The notes beneath the pieces were generated by a model, which saw nothing but the letters and a program-made list of their open reading frames with translations, was not told the DNA's origin and did not search any database. This document shows positions 2,385 through 56,635 of a stretch of 64,000 bases of DNA, in pieces. Positions within the stretch are counted from its first letter, which is position 1. Every line of letters starts with the position of its first letter. A program made the position numbers and the translations under genes. The DNA comes from Umbilicaria muhlenbergii (taxonomy: Eukaryota > Ascomycota > Lecanoromycetes > Umbilicariales > Umbilicariaceae), in contig KK106985.1 in the NCBI GenBank assembly GCA_000611775.1, positions 2,518,527 to 2,582,526 on the forward strand, read 5' to 3'.

Positions 2385-2417
2385 TGTTAGCAGCATGTGT
2401 CCTTCCTTATTTAAGAG

Positions 2418-14926: not shown

Positions 14927-14954
14927 AGCAGCTTCAGTGGGAGATGCCTAACTA

Positions 14955-15948: not shown

Positions 15949-15993
15949 AGCTGCATGTAAGCGCTCAGCTGAGTACCTGAGGCGGCGCATGAG
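15949..15993. repeat. Direct repeat, right copy
   Basis: This matches the left copy at 15581 over its full length apart from a gap of a few bases in the middle. The two copies bracket a GC-richer block of about 320 bp. Confidence 0.8.
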
Positions 15994-29951: not shown

Positions 29952-31092
29952 CATCAGCAATTTAGCAAGTTAACTCTGAGTTAATTTTTAACACTTTGAG
30001 CACTCTGAGCTTCTGATCTCATGTCTCAGCTAACAGCCGCTCTTAGCACCCTCTGAGCGCTTTGAGCTCAACCTTAAATCTTGAGCGGAACATCAAAATT
30101 TTGTGATAAAAAAACAGTTATTAAAACAATTGTTTAAACAAGTACACACACAGTGTTATAATAACAGTAAAACTTATAATAAGTAAACTTTTGCTAAAAT
30201 TCACTTTTCTGCAATAAAAAATCATGATTTGTTGAGTCTGAAAGCACTGTATAAGTGTTGAGTTCTGAATATTTAAAGAACTTCAAGATTTTCATCACTT
30301 AAAAATTTACACACTTTAATAACTTTTGCAACTCAACAGATATGAAGAAACTTTCAATGCATAAATTATAAAAAACAGTATTATCTATTAATGTTAAATT
30401 AAAAGTTTCTTCATAACTGCAGTTGTTGTTAAGTTATATTTAATTCAAGTTAAGTTATATTTAATTCAAGTTTTCAACAGCGAAAAATCTTTCAAAAAAA
30501 GTCACATACTTTGAATAACTATTGCGCTTTTATACTTATAATATAACTTTCAGGTTATAAGTTGTAGAGAATAAGCTGTTTAAGAGTTTTCTGATACAAA
30601 GTTTCTTTTTATGTGTTGTTGTTATTGAGTTATTCAAAAAGTCATTAAAAATCTGTTTATTAATGTTGTAATTTTCATCACTGAAAGTTTGAAATCAATA
30701 TAACTTTTTAACAACAACAGTTATAAAAAAACTTCAAGTTATAAAACTGTTTAATAGCTTCTTCTCTACAACTTATAAACTAAAAGCTATATCATAAGTA
30801 TAAAAGCGCAATAGTTATTTAATATGCTAATATATTTATAATTAGTTCAAAGTTTTTTAATTCATAACTATTGCAAATTAAAACTTATGAAGAAATCTTT
30901 AGTTTGTAAAGTGTACAGAATAAAGAGATTTAAAACTTTTCAATAAAAAGTTTCTTATTATTCATGAAGGTATAATAGTTATTTAAAGTGTAAGATTTGT
31001 ATGAGCTCATTTACTGCTCAGAGAGTGCTCTGAGCGCATAAAGTACTATTAACTAAAACCTTATTTTTGAGCGGGCTGCCAAATTGTGAATG
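29952..31092 (-). mobile_element. Palindromic TIR element D, copy 1
   Basis: This is a ~1.14 kb non-coding element with imperfect terminal inverted repeats, CATCAGCAATTTAGCA on one side and, read inward from the other, CATTCACAATTTGGCAGCCC. The interior folds on itself: AATAACTATTGCGCTTTTAT at 30514 recurs inverted at about 30800-30820. CpG-bearing words such as GAGCGCTTTGAGCTC and GCGCTCAGAG are intact, unlike the flanking DNA. The sequence is nearly the same as copies 2 and 3. It has no ORF, so it must be mobilised in trans. Its target duplication is unclear here. Confidence 0.8.
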
Positions 31093-32033
31093 ATCATCTT
31101 AAACTCTTTTTTTTACAGTCTTTTATCATTTTATGTTCACTTTATTTTTAAAACTTCTGTATATTCTTTTAAGCTTTAATTAACACTGACTGCACAGTTT
31201 ACTTACTCATTTATAATTAATTAACTTATATGATCTGTGATCAGCTTAATTTAAAACCTGTTTCTCTCTTTAAACTTAAGTGAGTATGTGATTTTAATAA
31301 CCAGTTCTTTAAACATTAAATCATTCACATCATTTATTTAAATTTACTTATGAAGAAAAAGTATAAGAAAATTATCATTTTTATATTAATAACTGACTTA
31401 AAATAACATGACATCATTTTCAAAAAATCATGAATGAACTGAAATCAGCTTTTTTTAAATATGAAAAATGACTTTATCATTTTTAAAAAAAATCTCCTCT
31501 TTTTATTAACAGAAAAGACAGAAGTAAAATGTTCATCCTTTTTTAAATTTTATTTTTTCACCTTTATTTTTTCTTTTAATCACTTTAAATATTCTGTTAT
31601 AACTTATCTTTACTGCAGATAATAATTCATTTTATATATACAGTATTAAAGCAGCACTTTACATCATACAAATTTATTAAAAAAAGGTATAAATATTTAT
31701 TATATTAATGAAGAACATAAATAAACAATTAACATTAAATTAAAAATGTCATATGAAGAAACTCAGCATTCAATAAAACATTTTTTAACATTTAAAAAAG
31801 ATTCATCAGCAGCTTTTTACTAAATATCATAAGTATTTTAATGTTTTTAATTACTTTTAAATCAGTAAGCTTCTGTTTCACTGACTTTATAATCATAAAA
31901 TTAAACTGTTAAATAATATCATTCTGTTTTAAAGCTGAGTTTACTGTATGTCATCTTATAAACTTCAGAAGATTAAAAAGTATTTTAATGAAAACTTCTT
32001 TAAAAACTTCATTATTTTAAGTAAAGTGATTTA
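31093..32033. other. AT-rich stretch, nothing recognised
   Basis: T- and A-rich sequence with no frame longer than about 60 codons and no matching element elsewhere in the window. It may be the continuation of the family C element or of the DNA that family A entered. Confidence 0.4.
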
Positions 32034-32312
32034 CTGTAAGAGGCTGATTTATGACGTGAGGTCATATAGATGTTGAATGAAGTATCATAAGCAATATAAT
32101 CATGATAAGATTAATGCAGTGATATATGTGTCTTCTATTCAGTGAGAAAAATTGATCACTGAGAAAGCAGATTTTCAAACCTTCTTGTGAAGAGTTTTCA
32201 CTTGATGTCAAGGCACTACTCACTGAGTCATCATATAAATGAGTTATAATGATGTACTGTTATACTGTCATACTGTTGTACTGTTGTACTATTATATATG
32301 ATGACTTTGACA
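32034..32312 (-). repeat. LTR of family A, partial (3' LTR)
   Basis: This matches 58590-58857 well through TTAATGCAGTGATATATGTG and the CTGTTGTACTGTTGTACTAT end. The outer edge fades at about 32034, so it is incomplete. A purine-rich tract (GGAAGAGAAATGCTG on the minus strand) lies next to its inner edge. Confidence 0.75.
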
Positions 32313-32700
32313 CAGCATTTCTCTTCCTTATGACATCATCCTCAGTGTCAATTGACTCTGAATTCATCATTATAGATATCATCATGATAGTTTAATAAGT
32401 GATTGATCATGTAGAGTAAGTGTGTGAAACTGTGTTAAGATAAGATTAATCATTATAAGTTTAAAACACCTCTTTCTTATGTTTCTCCTTCATCACCTCT
32501 CTTATGACATGTTGTTGTACTTCTCATGACTTTTTCACAGCTCATTAAGTGACTTAATGACTTCATGACGTCATCCTCATGCAGAGGTGTTCATCACATG
32601 AAGAAGATATTGTGAAGCTCATAACTCACAACTCAACATTCTTTGTAGTGTCATACTTAATGAACTTGTCACTCTTGACCCTTGCTGTAGATCACTTATA

Positions 32701-33150
32701 AGGTCTCAATAAAACCTGTAAAACCTCTTGAGGAAAATCAGGAAAGAGTGTCTTTATGATATTAACTAAATTCTGTTTGAGCTGTTCAAATTGTTCAGCA
32801 TGTTCAGAATCATTTAAACTGTTTGAACTGTTTAAATTATTCAGCATGTTTGATGTCTTGCAAGGTCTTGATAAAACCTGTACAACCTCTTGAGGAAAAT
32901 CAGGAAAGAGTGTTTTTATGACATTAATTAAATCCTGTTTGAATTGTTCAGACTGTTCAAACTGTTCAGATTGTTCAGCATGTTCAATGAATCACTCTTG
33001 ACTCTTGCTGTAGATACTTTATAAGGTCTTGATAAAATCTGTAAAACTCCTTGAGGAAAATCAGGAAAGAGTGTCCTTATGACATTAATTAAATCATGTT
33101 TAAACTGTTCAGACTGTTTAAAACATTCAGATTATTCAGCTTGTTTGATG
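32701..33150. repeat. Three tandem units of about 162 bp
   Basis: Units start with AGGTCTYRATAAAAYCTGTA at 32701, 32863 and 33024, giving periods of 162 and 161 bp. Each continues with CTTGAGGAAAATCAGGAAAG and ends in a GTTCAGACTGTTCA-type run of short sub-repeats. They lie in the inner 3' part of family A. Confidence 0.85.
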
Positions 33151-33284
33151 TCTCACATACACATGTCTATGATGGCAGAAAGAGTGATGACACATTGTAA
33201 ATTTATCTTTTCTACTCCCCTTTCATTTTTGTTTAATATGAGAAAATGTCATAGTAATTGTCATACTTTTGTTGTACTCATGTA

Positions 33285-33595
33285 TATTCATTGTATTAAT
33301 ATATTCATCACAGCTTGCTTTTTAAGCATGTAAGTCATGAACTGCTGATGTTTCAGTCATATCATCAGCTTCAGTATTCATTATACTGATATGTTCATCA
33401 TATTAATATGTTCATCATATTGATATGTTCATCACGGCTTGCTTCTTGAGCATGTAGGTCATGAACTGCTGATGTTTCAGTTGTATCATCAGCTTCAGTA
33501 TTCATCATACTGATATGTTCATTGTACTGATATGTTCATCATACTGATATGTTCATCACGGCTTGCTTTTTAAGCATGTAGGTCATAAACTGCTG
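33285..33595 (-). repeat. Tandem array T, segment 1
   Basis: Units of 124 bp (starts of ACTGCTGATG at 33341, 33465, 33589) contain the words GCTTGCTT, AGCATGTA, ACTGCTGATGTTTCAG and TATCATCAGCTTCAG plus a variable number of 17-bp sub-repeats (ATCATATTGATATGTTC type). The array is cut at 33596 by chromovirus B and resumes after it. Confidence 0.85.
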
Positions 33596-33940
33596 TGTTA
33601 TAATTTAATCAGAACAGTACTTAGAAGTACATGCTTGCAGTGAACAGTTGATATCAATCAAAGTGATCAAGATGAGTGAAGACTTGAACATTTCAATCAC
33701 CTCAATCAGGGTGATCAAGTTGTTCAGAGTGATTAAGAGTTTAATCATTATAATCACCTCAATCACATAAGTCTCCTAGAGTCTATATAAACACAGGTAG
33801 ATTCATAGTTAGAAGCTCATGCTCAACTCATGTATTAAAGACAATTTACTAGTTCTATCTTTTAAGTATTATTCAATCATAATTTGAATAGTTTAATGAA
33901 CAACAGTATTACTCTGATCACTATGACTTCACCTGTTACA
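33596..33940 (+). repeat. 5' LTR of chromovirus B
   Basis: The repeat begins TGTTATAATTTAATCAG and ends CACCTGTTACA, with a TATATAAACACAG promoter-like word in the middle. It is the same length as the right LTR. Confidence 0.9.
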
Positions 33941-36900
33941 CTTTGAGCATCAACTTATGAGGTATCAGTCATGCAATAAACTGACTCATCAGTCTCATGA
34001 TGTTCAAATCCTCTGACAGAGAAGGATCAGTCACTGAACATCTTTTTAACAAAGTAATTTAAGTTAAGATCTCATTATCAGATAAGTTCCTTAATGAGAG
34101 AAGATTATTAAACTCATTTTTCACTCAGCTTGACATGTACCTGCAGTTCAACAAGTCTCTATTCATGTTAAAATCAGAGAAGGTGTTGTTCACTTTCTCA
34201 TTTTTAAGATTAAATGCTTTGAACTGATTCAAACTTATTTTTTAAGATTACCTTGATAATAAAAGTGAAGATCAGGATGACTTGACTAATAAAATCTTTT
34301 ATAAATTGAGGGAATACAAGAAGCAGATAAGAATAATGTTTAAATTAATTAATGAAGAAAGAACAGTGAAGTGAGAAATTTACAACATTCAGCAGAAAGA
34401 AGCAGCTGCTACATATGCAGTAAACTTTTAAAGACTCACCTCATATACAAATTGAGATGATATTGCTTTAACAGCGCAATATTATAAGGAATTAAAAGAT
34501 GTGATGGAAGATGAAATCTTTAAAGCTGAACACTCTGCCACGCTCTCAGAAATGATTGAATGATCAATCATTATTAACAACTGAGCTTATGAATGAAGCT
34601 TAAAGAAGAGTCACAAGATTCTCATATCATAAAAAGCTGAGAAGAACCATGAGCGTCAGTATAATAATCAACTTTATTATGAACCTCAATCTATGAAAAT
34701 TGATGCAGCTACTCAAGTAAATCAGTTTCAGTGAAAGAAAGACTCAGGGAAGAAAGAGAAGCCTCATAGAAATAATTATTACAATTATAAAAAATTAAGA
34801 CATTTCACCTGAGATTATTGAATCCCTGAAAAGACTGTTCAACCAAAGAAGACATACACTGCCATGTGAGAAGCAGAAGACAAGAACAGTCATAACATTA
34901 TATTTTAAACAGCATGTTACAATGATGACTGTCACACACATCAGAGTGATAAAGATGGCTCTGAATGATTTTCACATCAACTCAAGAGGATAAGAGGATA
35001 TGTCATTATCTTTTATCTAAATCAAGTCATAAACTTGAAGAAACAACAAGTTTGATGAGATCAATTCAGTCAAGAGGGCAATTATGTTAACAGTGATAAA
35101 ACAATACCCTCATCTAGTGAGGAGGAAGATTTCATGAAAGTAATAAACTCTGAAGATTCAAGAGAGCTCATTGAGAAGAATGATGACATTTAAGCAATCA
35201 CTCATAAAGAAGAGTGATTGAAAACTTATAAAAAAGTATTTAAAGTGATGAAAGAATCTCCTGAGAATTACAATAATTACATAAATCTATTGCAGGAATG
35301 AATTCTATGAATAATTAAAAACATGTTCACTCAGAAAGATGAGACTAAAAACATAAATTATCAAGATATACTCAAAGAAACATCATTAAAAAGCTCAAAA
35401 TTCATCACAAAAGAAGGATACATTACTCTTGATGAAGCACACATCTCAAGAAAACTATGAATAAAAGTTTAAGAACTCTGAAGTGAATACTTAAAGTTGA
35501 ACTTAATATGATATTCAGAAAAGAAAGTTGACCTGAAGGATTTCAAGTATGTGAGAGAGAATCTGAGATTCCTCTCATTTAATTTAAAAAACTAGAAGGC
35601 CCTTCAGGTCAGAGGCCTCTGAAGATGCTTAAATCAAAGTCTTTAAAAGAGGTGATTGCTAAAGAAATCACTGTCACAGAAGACATGAGCAATTTCTGTG
35701 TTTAAGTTAAAGTGAAAGGCCACTCAGTCAAGCTATTAATTGACAATGACTACACAAGGAATTTCTTAAATTTATGATTCACTAAATTGAACAGGATAGA
35801 AATTCAAAGGAAGCAGAATTCTTATTTACTTCAAGAGTTTAATGAAACCCTCATGAAACACAATAATGATCATGTAAATAAAGAAACAGTTCTGATACCT
35901 GTTCAGATAAATCAACACTGAGAGAAAATCAGTTTTGACATCATGAAGCAGCCAGGAAGTGACATAGTTCTAAGCATATTTTAACTTTGAACAGTCAATC
36001 TCATGATTGATTGACCTGAGAATGAGATATACTTCATGAAAGGCAGTATTTTTATGAAGTTATATTCAGTCCTGTACTCACCTGAAGGAGTGAAAGTCTT
36101 CACTATAACAGTGAAAGAAACACATGAGGAATTAAAAAATCCTGATGCAAAGATACTGTGAATTAAGCAAGTCAACAATGATTAAAACTTTATTATCAAG
36201 TTATTTATCTTTAAAGAATATAAAGACTTTAAAGAGTTGTTTACAGCAGTTAAGAAACAGGACGCCTTGCTGAAACATTAAGAATAAAATCATGAAATCA
36301 AAATCATAAAAGATTGTAAATTAACAAAACAACTCATATACCTGTTGTCACCTCAGAAGCTAAATACATTGTGAGAATACTTAAAAGAGAATTTATGAAA
36401 AAAATTCATTCAAGAATCTCAGTCTTCAGCTGAATATTCAATATTGTTTGTCTCAAAATCTGATGAATCATTAAGGTTGTGTGTCAACTACAGAGCACTG
36501 AACAACATAATAATAAAAAACAGTTACTCACTGCTGCTCATGTCAAAACTGCAGGACAGATTTCAAGAAACATAATGATTCACAAAGTTCAACATTTCAG
36601 AGGCATTCAATCAGATATGAATAAAAGAAGGTGATGAATAAAAAACAATGATTTAAATGCATTCAGAGCTATATGAATACTTGATGATGTTATTTGAGTT
36701 AATCAACATCCCCGTGACTTTTCAGGCCTTCATCAATAATGTTTTATGATAATATTTAAATCAATTTATGATCATCTACCTCAATGATATATTGGTGTAC
36801 TTGAAAATGAAAGAGCAGCATGTCAAACATGTTCAGAAAGTTTTACAAGCATTGAAGAACACTGACCTGTGAGTTAAACCTGAGAAAAGTCTTTTTCATG

Positions 36901-39629
36901 CCAAGGAAGTTTAATTCCTTGAATTCATCATCACATTAAAAGGTTTACAGATGAACCTGAAAAAAATCAGATTCATAATTAAATGATTAAAACTGATAAA
37001 CATCAAGGAAGTATAATTCTTCTTAAGCTTCACAAACTTCTATAGAAAGTTTATTAAGGAATATTTCAAGATCACAACATCTTTGATGAAGTTGATGAAG
37101 AAAGACTGAAAATTCATTTAATTTATTGAAGCACAGAAATTCTTTGAAGAGCTGAAAAAGCACTTCACATCACAATCAATTCTCATGAGTTTCAACCCTG
37201 AGAAACTTATTACGCTCAAGATGAACGCATCAGATGAAGTTATAAGAGCATGCATTAATCAGTTAAATAATAAAAGATGTTTGTGATCAGTAACTTACTA
37301 CTCATGAAAGCTTCTAAACACTGAACAAAGTTATGAGATACATGACAAGGAGCTATTAACTATTGTTGATGCATTTAAACAATGACATGTATATCTTGAA
37401 GAACTGAAGCATGAGGTTCAGATGTATTCAGATCATAAGAATCTGTTATACTTCATGACAATGAAAGTCCTGAACCAAAGACAAGTTCATTGATCAGAAG
37501 AATTGTCACAGTATAATTTCAAGATTCATTATCAAAAAGGATCAGAGAACATTAAAGTGAATACTCTCAGCAGATAAGCTGACTACCTGCAGAAAAAGTT
37601 AATCATAAATTAAGTCATCCTCTGAGAAGATGAGCAAGAGAGCATAACATACAACAGAGAAATCAACTTTATGATAAAAGTTGAGAATAACACCTTCAAA
37701 AGTTGAGTTCAAAAAGTGTTGAAGAATGACAAGTTAATGCAGCAAGTTCTTTAGAATATTAATGATCATGAAAGCTTTGAAAAGTGAGAAGGTCTTTTAC
37801 TTTTTTAAAACTTAATTTATGTACCAGTCAGCTTATGAGAGACGCTGATAAAAGAATGTCATTTCAGCAAAATGAATGAGCATCAAGAAGTCAAAAAAAA
37901 TAATAAAATAACTCACATGAATATACTACTTCTCACAGTTGAGGAAGAAGGTTGAATAAATCATTTAAAAGTGTGATACCTGCTGAAAAAATAAAGCAGA
38001 ACATCATAAATCATATGAGTTATTAAAATCATCATCAACATCATCATAATCATGATCAAGCATTGCATTAGACTTCATGATAAAATTATCAAAGTCAAAG
38101 GAACCCTTGATGAAAGTATTATATAATGCAATACTTGTTATAACAGACTGACTCACAAAGTACAGATATTTCTTGTCATATAAAAAATCATCATTAGCAG
38201 AAGAACTAACATACATGTTTTTAAAAATTATAGCAGTCAATCATGAGCTATCAGAAGAAATAATCTCAGATAAAAATAAACTCTTCACTTTCAAGTTTTA
38301 AAAATCATTAGTGAATCAGTTAGGAATTCATCATAAACTGTTCACTGCATATCATTCTCAGACAGACAGACAGATCAAACACTTAAATTAAACATTAAAA
38401 CAATACTTGTGCTGTTATGTCAATTATCAACAAATCAACTGAGTAGAGTTCTTACTGATAGCTCAGTTAACCTACAACACAGCAACAATGAAATCAACAG
38501 GAGTATTATCATTTTACATTAATTACAAGTTCAATTCACTTATGAACAAAGTAAGAGGGCTGATAATGATAACATAAAGAGTGAAAGTACAAGTGAATCA
38601 CTTAAAGGACCTTCATCAAGAACTTTAATGAAACATAAAATTCACCTCTGAAAGGTCAGTGATGTATCATAACAAGAAAAGAGATAAGAGACTTACTTTT
38701 AAAGAAAAAGATAAAGTATATCTCCTGTATCACAACATCAAGATAAAACAATCAAGCAACAAATTAAATCACAAGAAGCTGAGACCTTTTCACATTTTAA
38801 AGAAGAAAGAAAGTGTTAATTATGAACTTAAACTTTCATCAGCTATGTAAATACATTCAGTATTTTATATGTCTTTACTTGAATCAGCTGACTTGAAAAC
38901 ACTGTTACAAGATAATTCACCTGAGATTAACCCTGAAAGTCAAGATGCTGAGTTCAAAGTAGAGGAAATTTTAAATCAGCAAGAGATAAATGATAAGTCT
39001 TACTATCTGATCAAATGAAAAAGTTATAACACGGCAGGGAATACATGAGAATCAATGAAGAATCTTACTCATTATTCAGTGAAGTTACATCAGTTTTATC
39101 AGAGGAACCTGCTGTCAGTCAGTCATCAAAAATAATGAAGAGTTCAAAGAAGTTAAAAAGAGAATCAGTAATTTAACTTTAAGTCAACTTCTTCTGCTTC
39201 AGTTCTTCAATGTTTTAAAGCTCAGTATGAATTAAATTCATCTGTCACTTCTCAAGGAGAGTGATTTGTTTGTGAAGTTTTTTTTCTTCATCTTCAACTC
39301 TCACTTCCTGGCAGAAATGTTTGTCTTTTTCTTTCATAAATATAAGAGTTCCTCTCTGACATGATTCAGCTCAGCTGAAGAAATCACAAGGTCATAAGCA
39401 ACACTTGATTAAACATAAAAACTGCAACAGTCAGATTTTAAAAACATAAAACACTCACAGTCACTGAAGACACAGCAGTGACAAGATCACATGATGAAAT
39501 TATTGTAATTAATGATACAGTCAATCAGGTGAAAGTGATGAATTAAGAATTAAATAATCTTTCTGTCATCAGAGTAAGGCATGAGGAGCTTTTGATTTTC
39601 AAGAATGAAAACCTTGTGAGAGGAGCTAG

Positions 39630-39974
39630 TGTTATGACTTAATCAGAACAGTACTTAAAAGTACATGCTTACAGTGAACAGCTGATACTGATTGAAGTGA
39701 TTAAAGTGAATGAGAGCTTAAACACTTCAATCACCTCAATCAAGATGATTGAGCTGTTCAGAGTGATTGAGGGTTCAATTATTATGATCACCTCAATCAC
39801 ATGAGTCTCCTAGAGTTTATATAAACACAGATAGATTCATAGTTAAGAGCTCATGCTCAACTTATGTATCAAAGACAATCTACTAGTTCTATCTTTTAAG
39901 TACTATTTGATCATGATTTGAACAGTTCAATGAATGATAATATTACTTCAATCATTATGACTTCACCTGTTACA
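39630..39974 (+). repeat. 3' LTR of chromovirus B
   Basis: The repeat begins TGTTATGACTTAATCAG and ends CACCTGTTACA. The target duplication follows immediately, then 20 bp of tandem array T before palindromic element D copy 2. Confidence 0.9.
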
Positions 39975-39999
39975 TGCTGATGTTTTAGTTGTATCATCA

Positions 40000-41124
40000 C
40001 ATCCGCAACTTGGCAGCCCGCTCAAAAATAAGGTTTTAGTTAATAGTACTTTATGCGCTCAGAGCACTCTCTGAGCAGTAAATGAGCTTATACAAATCTT
40101 ACACTTTAAATAACTATTATACCTTCATGAATAATAAAAAACTTTTTATTGAAAAGTTTTAGATCTCTTTATTCTGTACACTTTACAAACTAAAGATTTC
40201 TTCATAAGTTTTAATTTGCAATAGTTATGAATTAAAAAACTTTTAACTAATTATAAATATATTAGCATATTGAATAACTATTGCGCTTTTATACTGATGA
40301 TATAACTTTCAGTTTATAAGTTGTAGAGAAGAAACTATTAAACAGTTTTATAACTTAAAGTTTTCTTATAACTGTTGTTGTTAAAAAGTTACAATGATTT
40401 CAAACTTTCAGTGATGAAAATCACAACATTAAGAAACTGACTTTTAATGACTTTTTGAATAACTCAACAACAACAACACATAAAAAGAAACTTTGTATAA
40501 GAAAACTCTTAAACAGCTTATTCTCTACAACTTATAAACTGAAAGTTATATCATAAGTATAAAAACGCAATAGTTATTCAAAGTATGTGACTTTTTTTAA
40601 AAGATTTTTCACTATTGAAAACTTGAATTAAATATAACTTAACAACAACAGCAGTTATGAAGAAACTTTTAATTTAACATTAATAAAGAATACTATTTTT
40701 TATAATTTATGCATTGAAAGTTTCATCATATCTGTTGAGGTGCAAAAGTTATTAAAGTGTGTAAATTTTTAAGTGATGAAAATCTTGAAGTTCTTTAAAC
40801 TGAATATTCAGAACTCAACACTTATACAGTGCTTTCAGACTCAACAAATCATGATTTTTATTTGCAGAAAAGTGAATTTTAGCAAAAGTTTACTTATTAT
40901 AAGTTTTACTGTTATTATAACACTGTGTGTGTACTTGTTTAAACAATTGTTTTAATAACTGTTTTTTTATCACAAAATTTTGATGTTCCGCTCAAGATTT
41001 AAGGTTGAGCTCAAAGCGCTCAAAGGGTGCTAAGAGCGGCTGTTAGCTGAGACATGAGATCAGAAGCTCAGAGCGCTCAAAGTGCTAAAAACTAACTCAG
41101 AGCTAACTTGCTAAATTGCTGATG
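40000..41124 (+). mobile_element. Palindromic TIR element D, copy 2
   Basis: The element is 1,125 bp, from CATCCGCAACTTGGCAGCCC to the terminal TGCTAAATTGCTGATG. The outer 16 bp of the two ends form an inverted repeat, CATCMGCAAYTTRGCA. The empty site is known from neighbouring tandem units: TATCATCAGCTTCAG is split with a 2 bp CA duplicated on each side. Sub-terminal blocks hold small palindromes such as GCTCAGAG-CACT-CTCTGAGC. No coding capacity. It is near identical to copies 1 and 3 while surrounding repeats have drifted. Confidence 0.85.
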
Positions 41125-42928
41125 CAGCTTCAGTATTCATCATACTGATATGTTTGTTGTACTGATATGTTTATTATATTAATATATTCATCACGGCTTG
41201 CTTCTCAAGCATGTAGGTCATGAACTGCTGATGTTTCAATTGTATCATCAGCTTCAGTATTCATCATACTGATATGTTTATCATACTGATATGTTCATTG
41301 TATTAATATGTTCATCATGACTTGCTTCTTAAGCATGTAAGTCATGAACTGCTGATGTTTCAATTATATCATCAGCTTCAGTATTCATCATATTAATATA
41401 TTCATCATGACTTGCTTCTTAAGCATGTAAGCACTGACTGCTGATGTTTCAATTGTATCATCAGCTTCAGTATTTATTATATTAATATATTCATCACGGC
41501 TTGCTTCTTGAGCATGTAGGCACTGACTGCTGGTGTTTTAATCATATTATCAGCTTCAGTATTCATCATATTGATATATTCATCATGACTTGCTTTTAAA
41601 GCATGTAGATTTTATATTGCTGATGTTCTGATGAGATCACTGCATCATATTCATGTTTATCATCTCAGACTCAGTCAAGTTGTTTTTATCATTAAAAGGG
41701 GTAGTTAATCTCTGTCATACTCATCATATCAAATCATCTTTCAACTGTTCAGTATGACTTGTGTGTTCAAGTTGTTTGATAAACATTCTTATATAAGCTG
41801 TTATCTCCTTACCTAGAGGTGAGTGAGTAAACATGAGTTGAAGTGCTTCAACAGTGTCAGCAGAAGAGTGCTATGCTTAATTTAAAGATTAATAAAAACA
41901 CAGCTTGCATTATTGTTCATAATTACAGTTTCTGCTGTGTTATTCTTAATTGAGTGTTACTCAGGTTCTGCACTCAAGCTTTTTTATTCAATCACAGCTT
42001 GCTTCTTAAGCATATAAATCACAGACTGCTGATGTTTCAGCTGTATCATCAACTTCAGTATGCATCATACTGAATAAGTGATGCACTGCTGATGTTTCAG
42101 TGTCATTGATAATTTCATTTTCATTACAGCTTGCTTTTTCTTGAGTTGATAAATTTCACATTACTGATGTTCTGATGAGATCATCATCTTCAGTATTCAT
42201 CATATCAGTAGATTCTTCACTGCTGATGTTTTAATGATACTGTTGATTTCATTTTCATTACAACTTGCTTCATGAGCAGGTAAGTTTCTCACTGTTGATG
42301 TTTTAATGAGATCATTATCTTCAGTATTTGTTGTATCAGTAGATTCATTATGACAGGTATGACATTCTTTTGTTATAACTTTTGTTGTACTGAGTGTCTT
42401 GATTGCAGTTCATTACAGTTTACTTCTTCTTGAGCAGATAAATTCTGCATCACTGATGTTTTAATGAGACTGTCATTTTTAGGAATCATCATACTGAGTA
42501 GATGATGCACTGCTGATGTTTCAATGATATCTGTCATACTGAATAGATGATGCACTGCTGATATTTCAATGATACTGATGACTTCATTTTCATTACAGCT
42601 TGCTTCTTTTTAAATTGATAAATTCTACATCACTGATGTTCTGATGAGACTGCCGTCTTCAGTATTCATCATATCAGTAGTATTCATTGTGATAGGTACA
42701 ACATTCTTTTGTTGTAACTTCTGTTATATTAAATAAATTCCTCACTGCTGATGTTTCAGTGATATTATTGATTTCATTTTCATTACAGCTTGCATCATGA
42801 GTAAGTAAATTCCTCACTGCTGATGTTCTGATAAAATCATCATCTTTAATATTCCTCATACTGATAGATTCCTCACTGCTGATGTTTCAGTGATATTGTT
42901 GATTTCATTTTCATTACAGCTTGCTTCA
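41125..42928 (-). repeat. Tandem array T, segment 2
   Basis: Continuation of the array with units of about 124 and 89-91 bp (starts at 41224, 41348, 41437, 41526, 41617), then more diverged units with CACTGCTGATGTTTCAGTG and TTCATTTTCATTACAGCTTG words. On the minus strand parts at 42373-42555 and 42674-42859 read open with a recurring TSAV-(R/H)-x-L motif, so the array may once have coded for a repetitive protein. Copia element E interrupts it at 42929. Confidence 0.8.
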
Positions 42929-43152
42929 TGTCAAATTAAAAGACATTTTAAAGGCTCAGAAGTGTTGTGAACTTGATTGATTAAAATCTAAAGTGATTAA
43001 CACATTCAGAGTTTTTCATCAGATAAATGCTTCATAGATAGAATAAAATAAACAAGCAAGAACAAGAACAACATGAGCATTTAAACTTATCAATAGTTTA
43101 CATTTTTCAATGTATGCTTTTAGATTGATCCTTTAACTTTTTTAATTCAACA
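42929..43152 (+). repeat. 5' LTR of copia E
   Basis: The repeat begins TGTCAAATTAAAAGACATTT and ends TTAATTCAACA. It shares AAAGTGATTAACRCATTCAG and GAACAAGAA words with the right LTR and has the same length. Confidence 0.9.
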
Positions 43153-44176
43153 GTTATGAGCTTGAAATCATAACCTCTATCACTTATTTAGAGACAACAC
43201 ATTTTTCAGTGAACTCATTGACTTGAGTATTAATACATTTTTCAGTGAACTCACTGACTTGAGTATCAACACATTTTTCAGTGAACTCACTGACTTGAGT
43301 ATTAATTTATTCAGAATACCACTGAATTCATTTAAAACATCACTGAATTTATTCAGAACATTACTGAATTTACTTAGAACATCACTGAACTCATTTAAAA
43401 CATCATTAAACTCATTTTAAACATCATGAAAATCAACACAGCTAATCATGAAAGGCAGCAAGAAACTTGTTCTGACAAAGTTAATTGATTAAGCATCATG
43501 AATTTCAGTTGTCTATATCAAAGCAGAGCAACTAGAGATCTGAGAGAAAGTGAACTCAACACTGAACATAAAGCTGAAAACACTCACAAAATCAACAAAG
43601 CTGAACCTTCAGAGGATTCAAGAACTGTCAAAGAAGGAGTAAAAAATCACTTTTAAAAACTTTAAAATTAAAAAGAACATATACAAGTTCAAACTTAATG
43701 ATTATGAGAAGGAAAGAAAAACATTCACAGACTTTATCATGTTCATATAAAACACAATTGCAGCAAGCAATATTGTGTACTTACAAGAGATAAAATCACA
43801 TTCATGAAATATTCTTCAAGCCTTCAAGCAGCGTCTGTCCCTCAGTGACAAAACTCAAGTTTATGAACTTAAGAGAAAGTTTCTGAAAATGTGAAAAAAA
43901 TCTTCCTTCAATCAGAACATCAATAAATGACTGAATGATTATGTTCTCATCATTTCACAAGTCAAAACCCTCAAGCTCATGAAAGTCTTCAATTCACAAG
44001 AGACAATTCTAGACTTTTTAATCATTATAATTAAAAGAGACAAGAGCTTTTCTGACATTTAAATGAAGAAGCTGAAGGACAGACTTCTCATTAACATCTA
44101 TTAAGTCATCATCAAGTTCAAGTAATGACAACAGTATAAGACTGTATTCTCTTCCTCAAGCAGCAAGAATGAAGAC

Positions 44177-44383
44177 TGTTACAATTAATTATTTCACTTC
44201 ATAAGCAGGCCTAAAACTGTTGCAAGAGGTGAATTATTTGAACTTAAAAAAGTACAAAGAAGGAAGCAGTCTTGTGAGTGTGATCATAACATAAATGTTA
44301 AAGTGTCAAGACACACTAATTTCAATTTAATTTAACATCAGGTAATTCAATATTCATCAGTGTCAATTGATCATGTCATAACA
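44177..44383 (-). repeat. LTR of chromovirus F (3' LTR)
   Basis: TGTTACAATTAATTATTTCA to TGATCATGTCATAACA. It pairs with 50219-50425 along its entire length, with mostly C/T or G/A differences. Confidence 0.9.
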
Positions 44384-47300
44384 TCATTTCTCTTCAGACA
44401 GAAGGCTTGTTTTTAAGTTTTATAAATTTATGTTTTCCTCTGCAACCTTGTTTTCTTTTCTTTGTTTATTGTTACATTATTCTCCTTCACAGGGTTGAGC
44501 TCCTTTCCGGTTTTGTAAACTTTCAACTAAATATTCAGTCTCATTGAGGGCCTCATCTTCTCTGAGTAAGTATCATGATACTGTTTAAGCTTGTGTGATG
44601 ATTCAATGAAGTCATTAGTGTCATATCATTCAGAGTTGAGGTCATAACCCTCTCAATTGACCTGATATTGTAGTACCTCATTATGAACTCAGCTTGTTAA
44701 AACCTTGTTGACAGTATACTTTAATTCTTCATTAACTTTCATTAATGACTTCAGGTCCTGAATTTGATCTGATAAAAAGTTATCATCAGCTTTTCTTAAG
44801 TGATCTGCATGAAAAACATTGTTCATCTTCATGTGCTTGAGTAAGTTTAAGACATAAGAGTGACCTTTCATAAATAAAATTCAATATGAGCCCGCAGTCT
44901 GATGATTTAGCTTTAAGCTTGATCACTCAGTGATTCACCCTTTGCATGTGATGTAGACTCAATCATTGACTTTAAAGTTAAACTCTCTTTGATGCTTGTT
45001 GACTTGAACTGTCATTTTATTTTAAGCCTGTTTCAGGTTTTCCTTTGCTCATTTAACTGCATCATGAGCTCTGATAATGAAGGTTTGAGCTTCTTCTCTT
45101 GTCAGTTGCTCCCTTACAGTGTTAAAAGACTGTGTACAGTCTTTTCAGTGAAAGTGTAAACATGAGGTCTGTTTTAATTTCAACTCATAAGGTGACATGC
45201 CTGTAGATTTGTGAGTGAGAACCACTTGAGTGAAATTCATTACTGACAAAAGGTCTGACCAGTTATCCTGAAAGTGATTCACAAATGAGCATAAGTGCTG
45301 ATCAATGTACTGATTTATTACCTCAGTGTTGTCATTCATCTGTGAGTGATAAGTGATCAACAGCTTTTGCTTGACTCCTGTTAACTTGCAAAGCTCATCA
45401 GTGAACATTGATACAAATTGAGGATCATGATCTGAGGTAGCAGTCTCAAGTGACTCATAAATTCTTTAAATATATTAATAATACAGTTCAGCAGCTTAAG
45501 CTGCTGTAACAGTCTTCTGACATGACAGGGAGAAAGCTCTTTTTTTAAAGCAATCAACAATGATGAAGATGTTATCAAAGCCTTTTTTATTCAACAGAAA
45601 TGACTTAAAGTTGAAGAAAACATACTGTCAGCATTAATCTTTAATTAACAATGAGTGCAGCAGACCTGGTGTTTTGTTTTTAAGAATGTGCATTCAGTGA
45701 CATGTTCAGCAGTTTAAAATAAAAACTGAACAGTCATTTGACAGACCTGATCAATAGTACTGAATTGATAATAGCTTTGCTGTCTTGATCTTGCCTGAGT
45801 GCATCATCACTGGCGTTGAGTGAGATTCATTAATCAAATGAGTCTGCAAAGCATTCACATTCAGCATCATGAGCTTTTTAAATCATGTAAGAAGGTCATC
45901 TTGAAGCTTTCAACCTCATTTCTCTTTCTTTGCTATCTGATGATATTGATTCAATGATTCATGAGAGTGATTGACCTGCAGAATCTGATTTATCAACTGA
46001 TAAGAATTTTTCACCTGTTTAATCTCATTTAAAGAATCACTTTCAACATCTGCTGAACCCTCACTTATTGTGGTTATTACGCAACTAGGATTCAAAAACA
46101 GTTGCATTTATGCAGTGATGTTTTTTTCTTTCTGAGTAATCAGCTCATCATGTTTTCTTGTCAAGACATCAATGATGATGTTGATTGTTTCTGAGTGATA
46201 AGTAATCTTGAAGTTGTAGTCTGTCACAATATCAGCTCATTTAACTTGCCGTGAGTTGAGTAAATGCTTGATGATGAAGTATTTCAGCACTCAGTGATCT
46301 GTAATTGTGACAAATGAGACTGCTTGTAAGCTTAATAACATGTCACATCATTCTTGAAGGGCTTTAACAACTGTTAGCATCTCTTTGTCATGAATCTCAT
46401 ATTGCATTTCCTCAGGTGACATTGTCTTTGAGAAGTAAATTACAGGTTTTCACTTGTCATCTTTCTGCTGCTGAGTGTCAGTGAGCACTTTTGTAACAAC
46501 TTCATCACTGACGTCTGTCTTCATTCAAGTCTTTAAATAAGATGAATAATGAGCTTGAACAGCATCTGACAGCACAAGCTTTTTTGCCTTCTTAAAAGCT
46601 TGAATTTTCAGCTCTTTTAAGAGGTGTCAGGCTCCTTTTGTGATCAGCTTTGTCAACAGATGTATGACTTGACCTCATTTTTTCAATAAGCAACAATAGA
46701 AGTTGCAGAATCTCAGAAAGAACTGAATTTCCTTAACTGATTTTAATAACAATTAATTCTTGATGATGAAAACTTTATCTGAGTTCATTGTAATACCTTT
46801 GATGCTGATGATGAAGCTCAGAAACTTTGTAGTTTAAATGTTGAACTTATTCTTCTTTATGTTCACTTGTAGACTTGCTTTCTTAAGATGTTGAAGCACC
46901 TTTTTAACTTGCACATCATGTTTCAACAAATCCTCTGAGTAGATCAAAATGTCATTCACATAAATTGTGCAGAAATCATTCAAGTAATTGAATAAGACAT
47001 TGTTGATATACCTCTGAAAGAAGGCGGGTTCATTGCAAAGACTGAAAGATAAAATCTTGTATTTGTAGAATTCATACCTCATCTGAAAGATAATTAAATC
47101 CTCAACAGATTTCTTCATCTGTATTTGATAAAATGCCTGCTTAACATCTAACTTGATAAAAACCTTTACTTTAATCAGTCAGGTCAGTGTCTCCTCAATT
47201 AAAAATAAAAAGTATTTATTCTTTTTTGTGATAATGTTGAGTTTTCAATAATCAACATAGAAACATCACCCCCCCTCTGACTTCTTCACAAACAGGACTG

Positions 47301-50218
47301 ATGATGCATAAGAGATGTTATTAAAGACTATGAAACTCTTCTTCAGATGATTTTTTAAATAAGCTTTAATTAACTGCAACTGCTTCAGTGACATGCTGTA
47401 CAAAGAGCTTGAGGTCAGGTTATTTTCATCTTTCAAGATGATATCATGATTCACTTTTTTCTTATGTAGCAGCAGCTGATCTGATGTCATTTTGCTGAAA
47501 ACCTCTGTAAACTCTTAATACTGATGAGGTAATTTTTTCTTTATTTTTTAATTCAGCTCTGCTTCATTCTGCAGCAGCAGACAAGAATTTCTTCAGTTCT
47601 TTATTAAGTGATTAACCTCATGAATGTTAATGACATTAATAATCACCTCTTTTCTTTTAACATTGCATAGAAAGTTTCCTGTTTTCAGAAATGTGATATT
47701 CACTTCTTGATAAAAAGGAGGTTCATGATCCTTTAATTTCTTTATGTTTAATGAACTTTGACCTTCATTCATTGAATTACTTATGTGATTCATTGAATCT
47801 TCTTTTTCATTCAATTGTTTTTTCATCTCATTGATGTTGATCTGCTGCTGAGCTCTTCATGTTTTTGGTTGTGTTCACAATTGTAGGATTAACTTTTTAA
47901 GAGATTTAATGAGTCTTTTCTTTCATTCATTTAACTTCATCAGATGTTCAGTATCCTCAGGGTCAGTTTTGTTAAATGTCATTATGATTTCATCTCTTTC
48001 TGCTCTTCTTAAAATCTGAGTTGATGTTGCTGCCTCATGCAAGTGATCTTGATGATCAACATCTGCTTAATGTTTTGATTTGACTTCTGATAATTGTAAT
48101 TCTCATCTTAACATCATTAAGTTCTTGCTTGCCTGATATTGAGCCTCCTCAGGTCAAATCAGCTTTTGATTGAAATAATCAATGAAGATTTAAGTCTTTT
48201 TAAATCATTTTCTCTTGATCAAAACATCATGCCTGCTGGTATCACAAAACAAGAAGTGAGTAGGGATTCATCTTTCATTAATCATTAAATTTGCTGTAAA
48301 TGCTCTGAAGATCATCTTAACATTTTAATTATTATATATTATTAAGAGAACTGACCTTTGTGCTGTCCTGATGTATAACTGCAGATGCTTTTCCACAAAT
48401 TTAAAGTGCTTCTTGTGAATGAAAGCTTTCTCAGCAGCACTGATGTTTAATAGAGCTGCTACTCTCATGATTAAACTGTTAACTGCAAGTCAACAATCTC
48501 AGGTTAATGATGATTTTCTCAGAATGTTTAATATTTTCATCTTGTTTATCTTTGCTCCTTCTGTTGACTCTAGAGTGAAGACTTCACTTAAAGTAATTCA
48601 TTTTTTAAATCTGAATGATCAGAGTTTACAGCTTTTGCCTCAGCTTTCTTTAACTTATCAGGATAATCCCTCATCAGGTGTTCTTTCTTATTGCAGATGT
48701 AATAAATTATGTTAATCAACATTAACTTGATTGCTTCTCATGTGATGACAGTGATTGTGGTGATTATCTTCTTTTTAAATTTAAAAGTTGATTACTTCCT
48801 CTGCAGCTCTTACTGATTCTTTCATTTCTTAATTCTCTCATCAGTCTTAATAAGATCTCTCATGAACTGTTGAGCCTTTTTATAATAAACATCAAATGAC
48901 ATGTCCTCATCAGCAACATAGATTTCCATTTAAATTCAAAGTGAATCATATAACTTGTCATGAATTTTCTCTTTTCACTGATTCATAAGCATCTTTGCTG
49001 AGTTTATCAGTCATAGAAACTCTGACTGAAACATGTTAAAGTTCTTAAGATAAGACATCTTGAACTTCTTCAGTTGCTCTTATGCCTTTAAGTGATGATC
49101 TGAATCCTTGAAGATGTTCTTCAGGCATTAAATAATTTCTTCAACATAAATCTCTCTTCCTGACTGAGCCTTCAATCATGAATAAAGATGTTCAGCAGCC
49201 TTGCTGTTAACTCACATCTTGATGTAAATTATTTTAACATGTTCAGCTTTATCTTGATCTGATTGATTAAATCAATCATCATTGATTCATAACTTGCTCT
49301 TCATCTGGTCATTTCATACTCAGAACATGAGCTTAAGATCATCATTCAAAATTAGTGAATCTGAAAACTTCACTGAACACTTCTTTATTGTGTCACTCAT
49401 GTTTCATTTAAGTGTGCTTTCTCTTGACCGCTCTGCTTCAGGGTTGTTAAGTTGTCAGGTTAACTTCAACACATTCTGTTTTAATTCTTGTTTCTCAGTT
49501 GTTAACTTTTTTATTTAAAAGTCTTTTTAATTGTTCTGTTCTTCTAGATTCTTAATCAGTGCCTTGTATGAATCTCTTTGATTTAGTGCCTTCAACATTA
49601 AACAGCAGGTGTTCTTTGAATCATGTGTTACTTTCTTTGAATCATGTGTTACTCATCACTGTAAGTTTTCAGAGATCACCTCACCTCAAGAGTTCACCTT
49701 CATGATGTTTATTATTTTCAATCTCTCATGATCATCTGACTGTTCTTCAGTCAAGGATAATTTTTCAGATTGAGAAGAAATCTCTTTCTCTTAATATGAT
49801 TTAATCATGATTTCTTCAATGCTTCAGACATCTACTCTTAATGCTGAGATTATTTAATTCAGAACCTTGCTCTTTCAACTGCCTTTACTGCAGTTGTCTG
49901 TGTTTACAAATAAATCTTTAAGGGTGCTTACATGTTGCAGAACTTTCTGTTTATTATAATTACTTCTCATAATTACTTATCACTGTGACAGAGTACTTCT
50001 TGATCATTCATTACTTACTTCTCACAGGACTTGAGAATTGATTATTAATAATTAATTAATAAATTTAAGATGTTCTAAAAACCTCCTGATCACTTGATAA
50101 ACTGTGAGTTGAGACATTTGATGATGTCAAGGAAGAATTTTTTCATCAATATACATGTTTGTCTCAGCTGATATTCTGTCACCTTCAGAGGTTAAAAAGA
50201 GTGTAGGTACTTTTTTAA

Positions 50219-50425
50219 TGTTATGATTAATTATTTCACTTCATAAGTAGGCCTAGAATCATTGCAAGAAGTGAGTTATTTAAATTTAAAAAAGTACAAA
50301 GAAGGAAGCAGTCTTGTGAGTGTGATCATGACATAAATGTCAAGGTATCAAGACACACTAATCTTAATTTAATTTAACATCAGGTAATTCAATATCCGTC
50401 AGTGTCAATTGATCATGTCATAACA
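50219..50425 (-). repeat. LTR of chromovirus F (5' LTR)
   Basis: TGTTATGATTAATTATTTCA to TGATCATGTCATAACA, pairing with 44177-44383. The copia sequence resumes directly after the target duplication at 50430. Confidence 0.9.
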
Positions 50426-52290
50426 AAGATCACTCAGTGTTTCAAACAGAAGTCAACACTACTTATACAAAATGAGATCAAGATGATAAAAAGCAGCTGA
50501 AGTGTTTATGTGAATATAAGTACTGATGATTCACATGTTACTACCTGAACTCAAAAGTGGAAAAACCAGTGAACTGAAAGCCAAAACAGGATGTTCAATA
50601 GAAGATCAACAAAAAGCTTAAAAACATCTCTCTCAAGCAAAGAATAAAGAATTTTATTAATTAATTCAACATTCAAAAACAGCAAGATGAAGGAAAGCTG
50701 AAGTTTATAAACTCAGTCAACATAAAAGTTATTAAACTAAATGATATCTTCACCTTCACTGTCATCAGCTCAAATTATATGAGGAAAGTGAATTCACCTC
50801 TTAAGACTTCATGAATATTGAACTTCAGATCTGATTCACACATCTGTAATAATATGATGAAAGATCAGTTTATCACAAAAAGAACTGCACACAAAGATGA
50901 CATAATCACATCAGGCACTTATATGCAAATTAAGGGCTATGAAGAACTGTGAATTAATATTGTAACAAGCAACAAACCTGACACAATTTTGCTACAAGAT
51001 GTGATTTACATCTTGAATTATCTTATCAATCTGATTTCCCTACATAAAGCAGAAGTTAAGGGGGTGAACTAAGAATTACAATAAAAACAACTTACTCAAA
51101 ATGACAAGTGCATCACTAATGTGAAAAGTCATGAAGGTCATTATTTGCTAGAAGACAATACTACATCATCAGTAATTAACATTTAAGCACATCACACCAT
51201 CAAAACCACTACTATGCAACAATGACATAACATACTGAGTCATACATCAGCTGAATTTATCAAGCACTTGAAGAATTCAGCTGAGGAAATGAAAATTGCA
51301 GATAAGAAAGAGATTTCTGCATTAAAAACTCATGAGTGTGAGATCTGTGCTTTATCAAAAGCACATCACATAATTTTCAGAAATCTGAACAAATCAGAAC
51401 CTTTTACATGATCATTTCAACACATATCCTTTGATCTTATGCACTTTGATGTTGCATACAACAGTCATCAATGAGTGTCACATCTGACTTGTGACTACAT
51501 CAATTTCAACATGATCTACACACATCATCTTAAGAGTGATGCACTGCAAATTCTGCTGAACAGTCTAGCACTCATCAAGAAGAGGTATAATCAAGAGGTT
51601 ATTTTCATATGCACAAATGAAGAGAAAGCCCTTGATTATGCTTTTCAGAATGAATTAACTGCTCAAGACATTACCTTTGAGACATCTTCACCAGATACAT
51701 CAGCACAAAATAATCATGCAGAATGAAAAGAAGATGTACTGACAGTTAAAACTCACACTATATGCATTGTTGCTAACATACCTCAGTATATGTGGTCAGA
51801 ATGTATGTGTGCAGCAGTATATATTATTAACTGAACACTGATGAAGAAACATAACTGAAAGACTTCATATGAAAAAGTCATCACTCTGAAATTACACATT
51901 GATTATTTAAAAGCATATAAATGCAAGGCCTACTCCCTTATCAAGCATATTTCAAAGAAGGCAAAGCTGATGAAATGAGCTCATATCAGTTATCTTATAA
52001 GTTATAACTCAACAAATATCTTTCAGATTTGAATTCTCAGTCAATGAAAGATTATATAAATCAGAGATGTCATATTTGATGAGATGTCATTCTACAACTC
52101 ACAAGAACTGAATCTCTGACAATTAATTGCAGAGCTTATGATGAAAACTTCTTTAAACATATCAAGACTGATAATGAAAAACTGAATAACTGAACAGAAT
52201 TCTGAACAGGATTTTAAACAGAATTCTGAACAAAATTCTGAACAAAACTTAAAAGATGCAGTCTCTTCAAAAGAAAAAAAAAGAAGCAGT

Positions 52291-53232
52291 CATCCACAAC
52301 TTGACAGCTTGCTCAAAAATAAGGTTTTAGTTAATAGTACTTTATGCGCTCAGAGCACTCTCTGAGCAGTAAATGAGCTTATACAAATCTTACACTTTAA
52401 ATAACTATTATACCTTCATGAATAATAAAAAACTTTTTATTGAAAAGTTTTAGATCTCTTTATTCTGTACACTTTACAAACTAAAGATCTCTTCATAAGT
52501 TTTAATTTGCAATAGTTATGAATTAAAAAACTTTTAACTAATTATAAATATATTAGCATATTGAATAACTATTGCGCTTTTATACTTATAATATAACTTT
52601 CAGTTTATAAGTTGTAGAGAAGAAACTATTAAACAGTTTTATAACTTAAAGTTTTCTTATAACTGTTGTTGTTAAAAAGTTACAATGATTTCAAACTTTC
52701 AGTGATGAAAATCACAACATGTCAGGGCCACCATATAATAGTATGACAGTACGACAAGTACGACACTATAGTACGACATTATATAGACATGATGACTCAG
52801 CGCCTAGTGCCTTGGCATCAAGTAAAACTCTTCACAAGGAGGTTCAGAAACCTGCTTCCTCAGTGATCAGTTTTGTGACTGAATAGAAGACATATAATTA
52901 TTGCATTAACTTATCATGACTATATTGCTTATGACACTTTGTTCAAACATCATTATGACACTCTGTCATACATCCTGCCTCTTACATACTGATCACTCAG
53001 TACCTTCAGGTGAATGATCATGTCAGAAGCAAATAAGACATGATAACAAAACAATTGTTTTAATAATTGTTTTTTTATCACCAAATTTTGATGTTCTGCT
53101 CAAGATTTAAGGTTGAGCTCAAAGCGCTCAGAGGATGCTAAGAGCGGCTGTTAGCTGAGACATGAGATCAGAAGCTCAGAGCGCTCAAAGTGTTAAAAAT
53201 TAACTCAGAGCTAACTTGCTAAATTGCTGATG
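52291..53232 (+). mobile_element. Palindromic TIR element D, copy 3, interrupted
   Basis: The left part (52291-52719) matches D copy 2 almost base for base from CATCCACAACTTGACAGC onward. The right part (53049-53232) matches its end through GCTGAGACATGAGATCAGAA to TTGCTGATG. Between them lies a solo LTR of family A, and about 500 bp of the D middle is missing. It sits inside copia E, so D moved after E arrived. Confidence 0.82.
52720..53048 (+). repeat. Solo LTR of family A inside element D
   Basis: It starts TGTCAGGGCCACCATATAAT and ends AGACATGATAACA. It keeps several CpG sites (GTACGAC repeated) and GGG/CCC words that are lost in the other A copies, so it is the best preserved A LTR in the window. 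The flanking five bases, CAACA and AAACA, are not identical, consistent with the deletion of D sequence at this point. Confidence 0.8.
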
Positions 53233-55745: not shown

Positions 55746-56635
55746 AAGCATGTATAAATTCTTTTATACTGACTTATAATCTTTACTTCTCAAGTGAAAG
55801 GACTGTCACATTATTTCAGTAGCAGTTAAGGTACTGACAGTCTTCAGCAGTTCATAATCAGGCTGTTTATATCATATCAGGTCTCAGTATTTAGCAGCTT
55901 CTTACTGTAATATGTAACTGATAATCAGTGCAATTGACCGTCAATCTTAAAGTGTTACATCAATATTCTATCAATTGTGAATTCAGAGGCGTTCATTTCA
56001 ACCCTCATGAGTTTATTTTCATCAAAATAGCACAGTAATGAAGCACTCATGAAGGTCTTCTTTAAAGCTTTAAAAACTTTCAATGCAGCTTCTAAAGGTG
56101 AAAAAGAGGCAGGTATAATGTTTTCTTGTTATAACTTTTTTTTAACTTGTGAACTGCATGCTGAGTAACTTGTGTTAAATCTTTACAATGAGATTAAGCT
56201 GCTCTGCTTTCCTTTTATGTCTTGATGAGGAGCAGTCTGTTGAGAAGAAGAGAAATATCATTAATGACAGATAAAAAGATGAGCTGAAGGTTGATTGTGA
56301 ATTATTTATTCATATTAATTGTAATCATGACTGCTGTTGATCATCCTGTTGTACAGTCATTCATTCAATGACTGATAACTTTACATTTGATACAGAGGTC
56401 TGCTGCCTTTTGTGCATTTACTTTCTTCCTTGAAATGAAGTCTTCTTGTCAGCATGAGGAAGTCATGAGTGTTTATGTCATCATCATCATAATTGTTTCT
56501 TCAGTGATTAATAAGTGATTGAGATTCTGACTCTGATTACAGTCACTTTCACAGCTGACTTGAGTGAATTGAGTGCAGGTTGTTTATTGTTCAATGAGAG
56601 ATTCTTTTCTGTCATAGTATGACATTCATGTTTAT

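Follow-up and report, generated by a model that had tools for sequence, protein, structure and literature searches.

Why does a repeat family that encodes no gene keep CpG dinucleotides in DNA that has lost nearly all of them, and what moves it? The question is raised by D, a repeat of about 1.1 kb with three copies in a 64,000-nucleotide stretch of Umbilicaria muhlenbergii DNA (C5:2518527-2582526, called the window here). A preliminary description, made from the window alone, had left D without a superfamily. We followed D through 34.8 Mb of the genome, in 7 contigs. D is a non-autonomous DNA transposon of ~0.3 to 1.5 kb that fits a known transposon group, the PlavakaB type. Taking the explanation as a whole, we consider it very probable that D is a cut-and-paste passenger of a 22.9-kb Plavaka parent and has been hit less than this parent by a process like repeat-induced point mutation (RIP).

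D and a 22.9-kb Plavaka element carry the same ends

The window is gene-like from 1 to 18000, with a GC fraction of about 0.5, and most of the remainder is AT-rich. The three D copies lie where the preliminary description had placed them, and the other two are 94.2 to 98.4% identical to the copy at 40000. That copy (40000 to 41124, plus strand) is full length, with the B end on the left, the A end on the right, and CA on both flanks. The copy at 29952 to 31092 (minus strand, A end left and B end right) is also full length and is 94.2% identical to it. The third copy was correctly located. However, it is not uninterrupted, as had been thought. Its B-end part (D 1-430; 52291 to 52720, plus strand) and its A-end part (D 942-1125; 53049 to 53232, plus strand), which are 98.4% and 96.2% identical to the 40000 copy, enclose a foreign 328-bp piece at 52721 to 53048. 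This piece, which appears to be like a long terminal repeat (LTR), stands in place of D 431-941.

The 16-bp inverted ends are real, but they are not one sequence: the A end is CATCAGCAATTTAGCA and the B end is CATCCGCAACTTGGCA. The A end starts with CATCA, and the B end with CATCC (in mutated copies CATCT, CATTC, or others). Next to the ends are clusters of GAGC/GCTC words, with five sites at the B end (40020 to 40087, plus strand) and nine at the A end (40990 to 41103, minus strand). All are within 170 bases of the end, and none was found at 171 to 600 bases from either end when D was counted end by end. The middle of D is self-complementary, as had been proposed. Folding and arm comparison define two arms of 122 nt (40270 to 40391, plus strand, and 40460 to 40581, minus strand) that are 83% complementary and are separated by a 68-nt spacer. 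Folded as DNA, the middle reaches -81.2 kcal/mol, versus -25.1 for 100 shuffles (z = -14.7). D is AT-rich, with 27% GC. It has no stop-to-stop frame of at least 150 aa, the shortest length listed, which agrees with the earlier claim of no open reading frame. Rfam at gathering thresholds gave no match anywhere in the window.

A search of the genome for Plavaka transposase gave 11 matches, the best at 8.9e-46. One match (C5:2596123-2597022) lies in a 22,911-bp element at C5:2581004-2603914 that has GA on both flanks. Domain PF18759 is present in this element, which bears the ends of D. The left part of this element occupies positions 62478 to 64000 of the window (plus strand). The fetched Plavaka loci form one large repeat family, about 92% identical, and a relative of the left part on C2 matches window positions 63134 to 63995 at 91.9%. 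Of 126 candidates, 40 were scored, and the 10 other copies of the left part among them start at query positions 576 to 579, and the end word begins at 579, which places the left end at 62478. In two copies with different flanks, the right end reads ..GCTGATG or ..CACTGATG.

The Plavaka left end is identical to the D B end (40000 to 40024, plus strand) at 23 of 25 bases. The last 17 bases of the right end in the C3 copy equal the D A end (41108 to 41124, minus strand) exactly (17/17). Pairing B with left and A with right scored 40 and 37, whereas 500 shuffles reached at most 21 and 24. When crossed, the pairings (B with right, 18; A with left, 16) fell inside the shuffle range. Judged from these alignments, the pairing of the D ends with the Plavaka ends is specific. 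The Plavaka ends also carry four and three GAGC/GCTC words within 170 bases (shuffle p = 0.012 and 0.02), with six and two further in, at 171 to 600. One D copy is inserted within a Plavaka copy.

Other features of the Plavaka element were observed. Its insertion split a member of another repeat family at window positions 61900 to 62477 (29 scored copies besides a short piece). Close to its right end, it contains a DUF6532 match (1.8e-8; L059:237-440). It also contains a fragment of the spliceosomal helicase Prp28 (L061:304-1026 = C2:6024904-6025626; best E value 7.6e-83). This fragment lies mostly inside sequence common to two Plavaka copies and is likely a captured host gene piece.

D duplicates 2 bp of its target and is present in roughly 250 copies

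D makes a 2-bp target duplication. The CA duplication mentioned in the preliminary description is found at the 40000 copy, and similar pairs occur elsewhere. In a set of 48 copies, which excludes L028 and L030 on account of incomplete matched ends, the 2-bp flanks matched exactly in 22, with 5.8 expected from swapped pairs. When transitions were allowed, 36 matched versus 14.7 expected. There was no excess of matching flanks at 3 to 8 bp in the 48 copies or at 9 to 10 bp in 28 copies. The exact pairs were AA (6), TA (5), TG (4), TT (4), CA (2), and AT (1). Because AA, TG, TT, CA, and AT are among them, the D target is not TA-specific. Empty sites, once gathered as had been suggested, gave the same length. 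The joined flanks of 52 D copies had an unoccupied relative in 19 cases, and the net gain was 2 bases in 17 of these, 1 base in one, and 3 bases in one. As a control, 96 contiguous pieces were tested; 68 had a non-self match, with a gap of 0 in 62 and a gap of 2 in one.

These features agree with those of a named group. In the part of PMC12730594 available to us, PlavakaB families are described as having CATCA..TGATG termini and target duplications of 2 or 3 bp. The A end of D has CATCA exactly, and the B end has four of the five letters. The D duplication falls within 2 to 3 bp, and the autonomous partner carries a Plavaka-type transposase, although no intact copy was seen. The earlier statement that no named superfamily has such ends does not stand next to this description (PMC12730594, as far as available) and a parent element in the same genome. 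Ends and duplication place D in a known superfamily, and the classification part of the preliminary description falls.

A scan for the 16-bp end pattern, with at most one mismatch allowed, found 269 forward and 257 reverse matches (526 in all, including some ends of the Plavaka parent), and the control pattern found 10 and 10 (20 in all). D thus has roughly 250 copies in the genome, versus at least 11 parent left ends. On C1, where all 94 ends were listed, 42 ends formed 21 facing pairs 307 to 1538 bp apart, and 52 were single. Three single ends were fetched (543219, 568534, and 6930128), and each was one end of a D copy. The copies are highly similar genome-wide, as had been expected. Of 312 candidate matches, 40 were scored; 39 others reached at least 1,769 bits at 95 to 97% identity, and one more was 90% identical. 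Mean identity was 0.961 among 33 aligned copies. For this alignment we screened loci 1 to 50 and the 29952 copy, with the 40000 copy entering as L001, and excluded copies of 93% identity or less or spanning under 1,100 bases.

Many D copies are rearranged, with an inverted middle, internal deletions, or a duplicated half. The middle (271-582) occurs in both orientations (L005, L023, L028, L033, and L049), and these five copies are 95.5 to 96.6% identical to the window copy with the middle turned round. As a check on selection bias, we examined D copies met by chance in flanks or other fetches, within 360 kb of DNA. Second copies in L005, L023, and L028 were 95.5 to 96.1% identical once the middle was inverted. 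Pieces in L013 (97.9%), L025 (95.7%), and L052 (92.8 to 98.3%) were similar, and the L044 fragment was lower in one of its two stretches (84.5 to 86.2%, and 95.0% in the other). The D copies of L023 and L025 have the same left flank but differ in the right one, as if copies had recombined with each other.

D is probably spared in part from the mutation that ruined its parent

D keeps CpG in CpG-poor surroundings, as the preliminary description held. In the AT-rich block at 18501 to 62478, D has 22 CpG in 2,880 bases (7.6 per kb), versus 42 in the 39,896 bases of the remainder (1.05 per kb). The 328-bp LTR-like piece has 4, and a GC-richer insert at 56633 to 57505 has 40 in 873 bases. The observed/expected (o/e) ratio of CpG is 0.38 to 0.44 in D, 0.04 in 18500 to 56500 without D, and 0.09 in 57500 to 64000. 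The LTR-like piece holds 4 of the 9 CpG of the interrupted 52291 copy, and its seven relatives in the fetched DNA have 0 to 2 each.

Mutation in the Plavaka copies is directed at repeats and favors CpG and CpC. In sets of six and five copies, the mutated fraction was 0.45 and 0.38 at CpG, 0.29 and 0.28 at CpC, 0.11 and 0.12 at CpT, and 0.07 and 0.07 at CpA. The corresponding fractions for D, in sets of six copies, were 0.21, 0.22, 0.10, and 0.07. By contrast, RIP-like defenses are described with a common CpA preference in the portion of PMC12543289 that was available.

Pairwise comparison separates D from its parent. Between seven Plavaka copies (142,859 sites in 35 aligned pieces), there are 0.081 transitions per site and 0.0020 transversions, a ratio of 41. 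The 33 D copies (528 pairs) differ by 0.031 transitions and 0.0081 transversions per site, a ratio of 3.8. CpG survival, estimated in the same way for both on the assumption of independent mutation events on either strand, is 0.11 for Plavaka and 0.69 for D. D looks older by transversions yet less mutated than Plavaka. For comparison, we took 186 aligned pieces of other repeats from the fetched flanks; three of these, at 100% identity, are overlaps of the same place. In three bins at 87 to 96% identity (42 pieces), these had 0.055 to 0.105 transitions and 0.005 to 0.012 transversions per site and a CpG survival of 0.05 to 0.09.

These data bear on the view that D was never spared but was amplified after most of the mutation had acted, so that its CpGs are young. 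The high identity of the 33 copies fits late amplification, and the D copy inside a Plavaka copy means that at least some D moves came later than that insertion. However, transversions, which a C-to-T process does not make, are commoner in D, and repeats of 87 to 96% identity have lost the CpGs that D has kept. Private mutations also speak against mere youth. They number 52 transitions and 39 transversions in D, where variation is partly common to copies and a variant private among 33 may recur in unsampled copies, and 459 and 7 in Plavaka. Away from gaps, the D counts are 47 and 37 (C>T 14, G>A 13, A>G 12, T>C 8). The difference from 459:7 gave a Fisher p of 3.5e-27, in a test that assumes independent mutations and in which gaps were filtered more strictly for D. 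Private transversions per site and copy are about 0.0011 in D and 0.0002 to 0.0003 in Plavaka. Late amplification by itself is therefore an unlikely account. The preliminary description had left open recent movement or escape from mutation. Because D copies have more transversions yet fewer transitions than Plavaka, partial escape is better supported than mere youth, and our claim is that D is partly spared, not immune.

A further view is that mutation reaches D unhindered and that CpG is retained by selection on the ends, since a transposase needs intact sites. Twelve CpG columns are kept in 6 or more of the 33 copies; 8 of them fall within the initial 60 or the final 155 columns of the 1120-column alignment, and these terminal columns are close to the GAGC/GCTC clusters. 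However, internal CpGs are also kept, at columns 284 (31/33), 566 (32/33), and 610 (26/33), with column 415 at only 6/33. Moreover, the private mutations of D show a weak excess of C-to-T changes, which cannot be due to selection acting before insertion. We regard this explanation as improbable.

Base composition may explain the sparing

With partial sparing of D as the preferred reading, composition may be its cause. A specific form of this idea is possible, although less likely than not: D may be a RIP-hardened passenger, in which the interior of an ancestor had been stripped of CpG and CpC beforehand, the binding ends were retained, and the AT-rich interior is a poor substrate for homology recognition. 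Per kb, D has 4.4 GAC/GTC words, the parent 24.1, and window positions 19 to 29 kb 17.4. According to the accessible parts of three reports, RIP is governed by length, identity, and base composition (PMC4858203, PMC9970103, PMC12543289). As excerpted, one of them states that homology recognition in Neurospora can be influenced by base composition, with GAC as an efficient unit (PMC4858203). Another, also seen as an excerpt, states that Neurospora RIP is reduced below about 500 bp and ascribes the escape of miniature inverted-repeat transposable elements (MITEs) to short length (PMC9970103).

Length alone as the cause is weakened by another insert in a Plavaka copy. This unrelated insert, ~1.1 kb long, has 6 CpG in 1,143 bases (o/e 0.15), and its window relative at 56633 to 57505, with the 40 CpG given above, has an o/e of 0.89. 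The window relative has TGGGTT/AACCCA-rich ends around a minisatellite. The Plavaka-borne one lies at 13616-14758 of L052 (oriented, with L062), and about 7 bases flanking it are repeated where it is inserted.

A TET/JBP demethylase carried by the parent was considered as a protector of the parent itself and set aside. Pfam found no TET/JBP domain in the frames scanned, which covered the parent from window position 63134 on, with C5:2582527-2591599 represented by the C2 relative only (L058, L061, and part of L053).

The 1.1-kb passenger and the 22.9-kb helper have the same ends and lie in the same kind of CpG-stripped DNA. The helper is ruined by repeat-directed mutation and the passenger is much less touched, which makes the pair a natural test of what the process recognizes. 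Because the ~1.1-kb insert lost its CpG, the D/Plavaka pair may separate composition from length. If the RIP-hardened reading is true, a 1.1-kb family of ~250 copies at 96% identity passes RIP while its helper is destroyed.

D was most likely mobilized in trans

With the assignment to the PlavakaB type, a repeat family that encodes no gene acquires a parent and can be linked to a named mobile system. From the shared ends, D most likely moved in trans on the PlavakaB transposase of this genome. We suggest that the Plavaka transposase from the 22.9-kb element recognized the D ends and, if they have a role in binding, the subterminal GAGC/GCTC repeats. It would have excised D, or D would have been copied through gap repair, and D would have been pasted into staggered 2-bp targets. 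Gap repair through the palindromic middle probably gave rise to the inverted, deleted, and half-duplicated copies. The long parent has been ruined by a RIP-like host process directed at CpG and CpC. D is AT-rich, has little CpG or CpC, and has taken fewer mutation events despite more transversions among its copies.

It is very improbable that D was moved instead by Tc1/mariner, pogo, hAT, or MULE transposases with convergent ends, although the genome has matches to DDE_3 (16), DDE_1 (43), MULE (24), and hAT (13), since Tc1/mariner duplicates TA, hAT 8 bp, and MULE about 9 bp, unlike D, and a chance match of two different ends in the right order is unlikely. On C1, only 2 of 24 such matches, both DDE_1, lie between a plus end on the left and a minus end on the right within 25 kb, and the nearest ends around both are closed pairs of short D copies. 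One MULE match (C1:6650681) is external to a D copy (C1:6651734), at a distance of about 760 bp. The searches for helpers with DDE_3, DDE_1, Transposase_21, MULE, hAT, and YqaJ were all set aside. Only 5 of the 22 exact pairs are TA, as Tc1/mariner would require, and the flanks show no excess at the longer lengths of hAT or MULE. ISL2EU elements have a 2-bp duplication, and their YqaJ nuclease partner had 0 matches in the genome (2 of 14 control genomes were positive).

Several observations weigh against the passenger-and-parent explanation. The duplication is inexact in 26 of the 48 D copies. None of the 11 Plavaka matches is an intact transposase: the nine longer ones have 14 to 18 stops each and two short pieces have 9 and 6, mostly TGA. 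The right end of the C5 element differs from the D A end by 4 transitions in 16 bases. None of the four Plavaka matches on C1 lies between two ends (at most one mismatch to the pattern), so these copies have decayed ends or lack them. In the parent sequence examined, nothing matches the D interior except the inserted D copy. On this comparison of sequences, D has only its ends in common with the parent, and the D interior is not what a simple internal deletion of the parent would leave. As for mutation, D and Plavaka have similar C-to-T polymorphism at CpA and CpT; at CpC the D value is somewhat lower, and at CpG it is roughly half that of Plavaka. Simple counting across 21 CpG columns of D gives 278 CG, 288 TG, and 125 CA, so that 278 of 691 (0.40) are kept; 9 of these columns hold CG in only 1 to 4 copies and may represent either CpGs lost long ago or newly arisen ones. 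CpGs at the D ends decay as well (column 4: 15 CG, 9 TG, and 8 CA). Private counts such as 459:7 omit recurrent hot-spot events. One non-D pair (L050; 796 sites, 96 to 99% bin), with 0.016 transitions and 0.005 transversions per site, has a ratio of 3.2, so low ratios are not confined to D.

Comparison with known systems

D resembles CACTA/EnSpm elements in its CA..TG ends, short duplications, and clustered subterminal motifs. However, its ends are not CACTA. Transposase_21 had no match in this genome and none in the control genomes, so this is not evidence of absence.

The closest likeness is to PlavakaB of the CMCT group, which, in the available part of PMC12730594, has CATC..GATG termini as D does. 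The 2-bp duplication of D (one empty site suggests 3) and the Plavaka transposase on the parent also agree with that partial text. There are differences from what it describes: the families there are from Agaricomycotina, and the present genome is judged Pezizomycotina-like; the left end of D is CATCC, not CATCA; and the parent here is 22.9 kb (PMC12730594). In our judgment, the profile matches (nine HET, one DUF7025 gene, and two long and two short DNA-methyltransferase matches) fit Pezizomycotina. Unlike PlavakaB/CMCT elements, the parent gave no TET/JBP domain by Pfam in the parts scanned. Among the listed papers that name Plavaka, no title or abstract opening mentions one from an ascomycete.

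With regard to sparing, D is comparable to the MITEs of Zymoseptoria tritici, which, according to the available part of PMC9970103, are short, non-autonomous, and less RIP-affected than long elements. However, according to the same excerpt, most of those MITEs lie outside the large regions affected by RIP; all three D copies in the window, in contrast, are inside a CpG-stripped block. It also ascribes their escape to short length, whereas full-length D, at about 1.1 kb, is above the ~500-bp limit given for Neurospora (PMC9970103).

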